Source: Sphingobacteriaceae bacterium (GTDB lineage Bacteria > Bacteroidota > Bacteroidia > Sphingobacteriales > Sphingobacteriaceae). Taken from it: a stretch of DNA of 64,000 nucleotides. The notes beneath the pieces are model-generated. The model was not told the origin of the DNA and did no database searches. It saw only the letters and a program-made list of their open reading frames with translations. The translations under genes were made by a program, and so were the position numbers. The DNA is taken from the NCBI GenBank assembly GCA_947463785.1, contig CANHRG010000002.1, forward strand, positions 1-64,000, given 5' to 3'. Positions within the stretch are counted from its first letter, which is position 1. Every line of letters begins with the position of its first letter. Below, piece after piece: positions 2,906 to 46,877 of the stretch.

Positions 2906-2936
2906 TTTGAATTAAAAAAAAACTACGCTATATTTG
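2906..2936 (+). promoter_or_regulatory. Bacteroidota-type promoter of rpmH
   Basis: TTTG (2906-2909), 19 bp spacer, TATATTTG (2929-2936); matches the TTTG/TAnnTTTG consensus. Confidence 0.6.
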
Positions 2937-2973: not shown

Positions 2974-3132
2974 ATGAAAAGAACATTTCAGCCATCCCAA
3001 AGAAAAAGAAGAAACAAACACGGTTTCAGAGAGCGTATGTCAACTGCAAACGGAAGACGGGTTTTGGCTTCTAGAAGGGCTAAAGGAAGAAAAAGACTGA
3101 CCGTATCTGACGAGCGTCGTCACAAAGCATAA
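2974..3132 (+). CDS. rpmH: 50S ribosomal protein L34 (missing from the ORF track because it is short)
   Basis: Read directly: ATG...TAA encoding [52 protein letters not shown]. Confidence 0.97.
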
Positions 3133-3137
3133 TTTTT

Positions 3138-3200
3138 GATTGCTTGCCGCTTTCGCGGGATAGCAGATCAGAAATTCATTCTGAACCAGCTCAGGCAATC
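3138..3200 (+). other. Predicted three-way-junction RNA/DNA fold between rpmH and rnpA
   Basis: P1 GATTGCTTG/CAGGCAATC (3138-3146/3192-3200), P2 CCGC-TTTC-GCGG (3147-3158), P3 AGC...GCT closing TCAGAA-ATTCA-TTCTGA (3162-3191). Confidence 0.6.
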
Positions 3201-3203
3201 AAG

Positions 3204-3602
3204 ATGTATACCTTTACTAAAGAAGAACGTTTATGTAGTCAAAAGCTTTTAGATGAGCTTTACCATAAAGGTTCTTCTTTTTTGTTATACCCATTTTCGG
3301 TAATCTGGTTGCCTCAAGAGCCAGTAGCCAAGCCAGTTCAAGTCGTATTGCAAGTTCCTAAACGAAGATTCAAGCACGCCGTAGATCGAAATTACATCCG
3401 TCGCCGGATGCGTGAAATTTACCGTTTACACAAATCCGAATTGCTGTATCCGTTTCTGAAATCAGATCAAACACTTTTGCTGGGTATTAGCTACATAGGT
3501 AAAGAGTTACCCGAATACGCTTTTATGGACTCGAAGCTGAAAGAAGTGTTCAAAAAATTAGTGAAAGAAATAGCCTTGAAGCAGGAAGGAGAACCGAGCT
3601 GA
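3204..3602 (+). CDS. rnpA: Ribonuclease P protein component
   Basis: [23 protein letters not shown]...[24 protein letters not shown]; follows rpmH. ATG at 3204 preferred over the upstream TTG at 3144. Confidence 0.95.
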
Positions 3603-3820
3603 TGCGTTTCTTTACGTACATTTTCTTGTTTTTCATCAAGTTATACCAATACTTATTATCGCCATTACTTGGGGCCTCTTGCCGCTATACACCTACCTGT
3701 TCACAATATGGGGTAGAAGCCATTCAAAAACATGGTCCATTTAAAGGAGGATGGTTAACTTTGAAACGTATAGGCCGTTGTCACCCCTGGGGTGGGCATG
3801 GTCATGATCCAATTCCCTGA
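3602..3820 (+). CDS. yidD: Membrane protein insertion efficiency factor
   Basis: [59 protein letters not shown]. Confidence 0.97.
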
Positions 3821-17323: not shown

Positions 17324-17327
17324 AATT

Positions 17328-17432
17328 TTTCAATTTGTTAATTAGTCAATTAGCTAATTAGCCGATTATTTTTTCTTTAATTTTATTTTAATTGCCGAAT
17401 TGACAAATCGTCAAATCGACAAATTGATTAAT
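17328..17432. repeat. Two facing arrays of degenerate octamers (AATT-phased) between iscU and iscS
   Basis: Array 1: TTTCAATT TGTTAATT AGTCAATT AGCTAATT AGCCGATT (17328-17367). Array 2: TGCCGAAT TGACAAAT CGTCAAAT CGACAAAT TGATTAAT (17393-17432). Confidence 0.7.
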
Positions 17433-46814: not shown

Positions 46815-46826
46815 TTAATAAATACC

Positions 46827-46861
46827 AAAGCCTACTAAAGTAAGATTTAGTAGGCTTTTTT
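46827..46861. other. Hairpin between MBL-fold gene and smc (terminator- or attenuator-like)
   Basis: AGCCTACTAAA-GTAAGA-TTTAGTAGGCT; the 6-T run is on the plus strand although both flanking genes are on minus. Confidence 0.7.
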
Positions 46862-46877
46862 CCAATATGTTGTTGTT

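Follow-up and report, generated by a model that had tools for sequence, protein, structure and literature searches.

An RNA domain spanning the rpmH-rnpA gap in a Sphingobacteriaceae-like family, with a likely role in translation of the RNase P protein

An RNA domain spans the gap between rpmH and rnpA in the window (the whole 64,000-nucleotide stretch of DNA analysed here), and its predicted fold, which runs from the rpmH stop codon to the rnpA start codon, is beyond chance. The structure itself is well supported. It is likely that the fold controls the amount of RNase P protein that is translated, a reading of the modelled structure that is supported by its family-wide architecture, by covariation, by strand-specific G.U pairs and by the predicted burial of the rnpA start. 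We propose, with moderate confidence, that the element would be an operon-internal cis-regulatory RNA that lowers the translation of rnpA relative to that of rpmH and is opened by the ribosomes finishing rpmH. The coupling step, in which translation of rpmH would open the rnpA start, is less certain than the control of translation, and we infer repression, coupling and purpose (the ratio of L34 to RnpA). The genes and helices concerned are the following.

2907 to 2936, plus strand: likely rpmH(-rnpA) promoter of the Bacteroidetes type (TTG, 19 nt, TAtaTTTG), read in the sequence.
2974 to 3132, plus strand: rpmH, ribosomal protein L34 (Pfam PF00468, E 4.5e-23), with the stop codon TAA at 3130-3132.
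3134 to 3146, plus strand: 5' arm of P1, UUUUGAUUGCUUG, beginning 1 nt past the rpmH stop (RNAfold, family geometry).
3147 to 3158, plus strand: P2 hairpin, CCGC-UUUC-GCGG (RNAfold), whose two best covarying pairs rank 1 and 2 in the test on 65 sequences.
3162 to 3191, plus strand: P3, AGC/GCU, an internal loop, then UCAGAA-AUUCA-UUCUGA (RNAfold).
3192 to 3204, plus strand: 3' arm of P1, CAGGCAAUCAAGA, whose last nucleotide is the A of the rnpA AUG (RNAfold, family geometry, accessibility).
3204 to 3602, plus strand: rnpA, RNase P protein (Pfam PF00825, Ribonuclease_P, E 1.8e-13), its start region predicted to be sequestered by P1.
3602 to 3820, plus strand: yidD, the next gene in the cluster (Pfam PF01809).

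The promoter was assigned against the Bacteroidetes consensus, and a sigma-70 scan at 2907-2934 gave a weak match at chance level. Within the 71-nt gap of the window, the stable structure follows the stop codon directly. The sequence-only reading had drawn a three-way junction at 3138-3200, and RNAfold returns exactly this junction at -21.5 kcal/mol (z -2.67, with one of 200 dinucleotide shuffles as good); when the flanks are included (3130-3210), the fold reaches -26.7 kcal/mol and is better than every one of 200 dinucleotide shuffles (z -3.73). Both of the hairpins that had been described, P2 (CCGC-TTTC-GCGG) and P3 (AGC/GCT with TCAGAA/TTCTGA), are present in this structure. The closing helix P1 had been drawn too short: GATTGCTTG/CAGGCAATC, with its one G.U pair, is there, but RNAfold adds four outer pairs between U3134-U3137 and A3201-A3204, so that the full helix pairs 3134-3146 with 3192-3204. 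The end of the fold, which had been set 3 nt short of the ATG, moves with it to the A of the rnpA AUG at 3204. The long open reading frame that would start rnpA at TTG 3144 had been put down to translation through the spacer, and rightly so, since the spacers of relatives vary from 34 to 94 nt and do not keep the frame; this extended start was rejected, the ATG ... TFxKEER start of RnpA being conserved in relatives whereas the frame of the spacer is not.

The architecture of the element is common to a family whose members live in soil and water, among them Pedobacter and Mucilaginibacter; these two are the nearest named relatives, and the family is therefore probably Sphingobacteriaceae. The family sample comprises 111 distinct rpmH-rnpA spacers under a length limit of 100 nt, mostly of 60-94 nt, and their median folding z against composition-matched shuffles is -2.97. 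Ends joined in the manner of P1, by at least 6 bp between the 16 nt at one end of the gap and the 16 nt at the other, are found in 88% of these spacers compared with 20% of shuffles. In the census of minimum-energy folds, P1 is accompanied by two hairpins in 61 spacers and by one in 42, and is missing from 5 (four to five family members lack it in the predicted fold). The constant feature of the predicted folds is therefore the closure of the gap by P1, and the three-way junction is its commonest filling only, not a universal one. The sequence of the P1 helix and the size of the hairpins drift between relatives while the pairing persists, and P2 and P3 differ in sequence, size and number from genus to genus; no conserved unpaired motif and no conserved junction or loop nucleotides stood out among the family spacers. 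In 89% of the 107 spacers with P1, at most 6 nt separate the rpmH stop from the start of this helix, and in 57 spacers the helix begins at the first nucleotide; its 3' end lies at or across the rnpA start, the AUG itself being paired in 62. The start codon is shifted in some genera (loci L177, L204 and L220), where P1 covers the first rnpA codons instead. In one clade (L067, L070, L073, L082, L084, L085, L168, L172 and their relatives), the P2 loop contains a conserved UAGCCU whose complement, AGGCUA, lies ahead of the 3' arm of P1; by this complementarity, the two may form a pseudoknot or a second fold in competition with P2.

As a control within the window, nine other co-directional gaps of 40-110 nt were considered, and one of them has an end-to-end helix, formed by an AT-rich degenerate repeat. 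Between co-directional genes at 17324-17427 (minus-strand sense), a 104-nt AT-rich gap contains degenerate CGATTTG/AATTTG-like units and a long end-to-end stem (z -3.65). Another pair of co-directional genes is separated at 46815-46877 (minus-strand sense) by a perfect, terminator-like hairpin, AAGCCTACTAAA...TTTAGTAGGCTTT, with a z of -5.4.

Covariation points to the same helices. In a MAFFT alignment of 31 sequences, the 18 pairs are 89.7% canonical, and their covariation score of 0.188 lies above that of all 500 shuffles (mean 0.132) and drops to 0.07 or less when the partners are slid by 1-3 columns. Blind MAFFT alignment of all 111 spacers lets no structural pair stand out, the 3' arm slipping against the adjacent ATG, and for this reason a subset of 71 sequences and covariance-model alignments were used. 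They were examined by an R-scape-like test, a G-test with APC whose null redistributes the substitutions along a tree built from the neighbouring coding DNA. The top column pair of the blind alignment of 71 sequences is the P1 pair 3143:3195 (C-G in 43, U-A in 16; E 0.84). In the covariance-model alignment of 65 sequences, the proposed pairs are six of the top seven among about 3,700 column pairs under the tree-based null; since this alignment leans towards its own structure, the evidence lies in the concentration of the top pairs on the proposed ones. The covariation that the sequence-only reading had pointed to as a check is thus seen in this ranking and in the shuffle comparison, but no pair falls below an E of 0.05 over all column pairs, the first three standing at 0.06, 0.15 and 0.2. 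Blind RNAalifold of 27 Mucilaginibacter-like sequences, a separate clade, recovered P1, P2 and P3. Cells with G.U far exceed those with C.A: the counts are 87:13 overall, 33:3 for P1 when taken from the blind alignment, and 44:6 for the Mucilaginibacter-like second clade; neither a DNA palindrome nor an antisense RNA would show this asymmetry, so that selection acts on the sense mRNA strand.

A covariance-model search of 296 genomes across the class found family members only, and Mucilaginibacter-type members were missed too, so that absence elsewhere is not implied. A second apparent model match, at 2624-2710 of L090, falls within a coding gene and was set aside. Identity with a known Rfam family was likewise rejected: Rfam 15 gave no family at the gathering threshold, whether the window or 20 related loci were scanned, and no meaningful match at E up to 10. 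The window contains no tRNA gene. No published description of an element in the rpmH-rnpA gap was found in our literature search, itself incomplete. We conclude that the element is a lineage-restricted, operon-internal RNA of a known kind, new as a member.

Around the rnpA start (-12 to +5) the predicted accessibility is low: the unpaired fraction is 0.38, whereas the start region of rpmH in these loci has 0.63 and shuffled spacers give 0.53, and the rnpA figure in the window is 0.15, no p-value being attached to these differences because the genomes are related. The 3' arm of P1 is A-rich (GCAAUCAAA-AUG in many members) and is paired with U-rich sequence past the rpmH stop. Bacteroidetes do without Shine-Dalgarno pairing; what tunes initiation in this phylum is local structure together with A residues upstream (PMC6847099). 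When the 12 nt after the rpmH stop are masked in silico, the predicted unpaired fraction of the rnpA start rises to 0.55-0.58, as against 0.41-0.44 with equal 12-nt masks elsewhere. The demand for L34 is at the level of ribosomes, that for the RNase P protein much lower. We hypothesise that P1, by pairing the sequence that immediately follows the rpmH stop with the sequence that leads up to, or takes in, the rnpA start, one or two hairpins lying between them, would keep the rnpA start region double-stranded; free ribosomes would then seldom initiate there, and one transcript would give far less RnpA than L34. A ribosome terminating on rpmH would cover about 12 nt past the stop, corresponding to the 5' arm of P1, and with this arm covered the rnpA start, about 70 nt downstream and distant enough for a second ribosome, would be freed. 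The translation of rnpA would thereby be low, yet follow that of rpmH. The spacing, mostly of 60-90 nt, leaves room for two ribosomes, one at the rpmH stop and one at the rnpA start, and so favours start gating with coupling by unfolding, which we rank above pure insulation, processing and feedback by RnpA.

Immediately past a stop codon, mRNA structure can, instead of coupling translation, also prevent re-initiation (PMC7518266). On such a reading, which we regard as rather unlikely, the element would be a translation insulator, or ribosome termination structure, a barrier to sliding and re-initiation without coupling, and rnpA would be started only by rare breathing of P1. Post-stop structures are indeed common where the gap exceeds 25 nt and reduce downstream expression (PMC7518266), and P1 begins directly at the rpmH stop codon; however, an insulator has no need for a 3' arm that ends exactly at the next start, as P1 does family-wide, and the extension of P1 into rnpA codons in several clades also speaks against it. 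The exact closure of P1 on the start codon would equally be left unexplained by an element of RNA processing or stability, either a duplex that an RNase cuts, parting rnpA from the abundant message of rpmH, or a structure shielding the 3' end of the rpmH mRNA. The long stacked helices, set between genes whose required output differs greatly and keeping their pairing while helix sequence and hairpin size drift, would suit such a role, but no conserved unpaired motif accompanies them, and we judge it improbable.

Feedback deserves consideration, since RnpA binds RNA and the start codon of its own gene is where the element lies: RnpA, the RNase P holoenzyme or L34 might bind the junction and repress rnpA. 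The variation of P2 and P3 between genera, the lack of conserved junction or loop nucleotides, and the absence of any tRNA or RNase P family match in the Rfam scans of the window and related loci make this very unlikely. A slightly slimmer chance still is given to a family-wide RNA switch, in which RNase P or RnpA would recognise or cut the junction at its own start codon, feedback acting via a compact, sequence-poor fold; if true, RNase P would be under feedback control exerted through the mRNA of its protein. Scarcely any credence is left for a DNA-level element, whether an internal promoter or a dispersed REP-like palindromic repeat. Of the 107 genomes that have P1, 17 match the Bacteroidetes -7 consensus, TAnnTTTG, in the region of the rpmH stop and the P1 5' arm, and in these an internal promoter is possible; but the match is absent from most members, and the 87:13 ratio of G.U to C.A indicates selection on one RNA strand. 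The repeat version, which the sequence-only reading had offered as an alternative, is refuted: many copies would be expected, whereas BLAST found no further copy in the organism's own genome (1.8 Mb), only chance-level matches of 16-26 nt, and the covariance model found one significant copy there, with 61 bits at the rpmH-rnpA gap and 20 bits (E 5.4) for the next best.

Start gating with coupling has a known counterpart in the rpmI-rplT (L35-L20) pair of E. coli, where a ribosomal-protein gene likewise lies tens of nucleotides ahead of a gene transcribed together with it. In E. coli, L20 also binds as a repressor; the genes are different here, and no binding protein is indicated for the rpmH-rnpA element. 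The E. coli structure hides the downstream start and is opened by upstream translation, an opening that in rpmH-rnpA is predicted; coupling there proceeds by unfolding across a gap of +52 nt, for which room for two ribosomes has been argued (PMC12548453). The element shares with ribosome termination structures a stable structure directly after the stop, within an operon and in a gap of more than 25 nt (Chemla et al, 2020; PMC7518266), but these are a generic feature of local energy, whereas the rpmH-rnpA element is one specific helix from stop to start that covaries across the family. L34 and the RNase P protein are also translationally linked in Thermus, through a shared rnpA-rpmH start site (PMC9841429), although the reading frames overlap there, with start codons a few nucleotides apart, and the element described here is a structured spacer. 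Like the ribosomal-protein leader RNAs of Bacteroidia (r-leaders), it is lineage-restricted, cis-acting and located in a ribosomal-protein operon; r-leaders, however, are found ahead of the operon and presumably bind a ribosomal protein, whereas this element lies inside it, and the main text of the r-leader paper makes no mention of an L34 or rnpA leader (PMC7247131).

At the evolutionary level, outgroup Bacteroidetes with adjacent rpmH and rnpA have a hairpin followed by a U-run in 10 of the 14 spacers inspected, a terminator or attenuator at the same genomic place and plausibly with the same purpose, less rnpA than rpmH. The element differs in having no U-run after its stem: the gap of the window holds no intrinsic terminator, and weak terminator-like calls were made in only 3 of the 111 family spacers. 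For most of the 20 genomes taken from the other families of the class, no rpmH was detected beside rnpA, and the few spacers between adjacent genes showed no end-to-end P1. The 138-nt spacer of L083 has an extra, terminator-like hairpin with a U-run upstream of the conserved element; to judge from its sequence, this member perhaps carries both solutions, terminator and gate. It is plausible that both lower rnpA relative to rpmH from one promoter, the outgroups by termination and the Sphingobacteriaceae-like family by hiding the start. L34 and RnpA lie on a shared transcript despite unequal need, and the control of RnpA output is poorly described. The present comparison points to one lineage in which a gate at the level of translation took the place of a transcription terminator between rpmH and rnpA; this gate would be an example of start-codon gating in a phylum without Shine-Dalgarno sequences and a concrete, testable case in the culturable Pedobacter and Mucilaginibacter.
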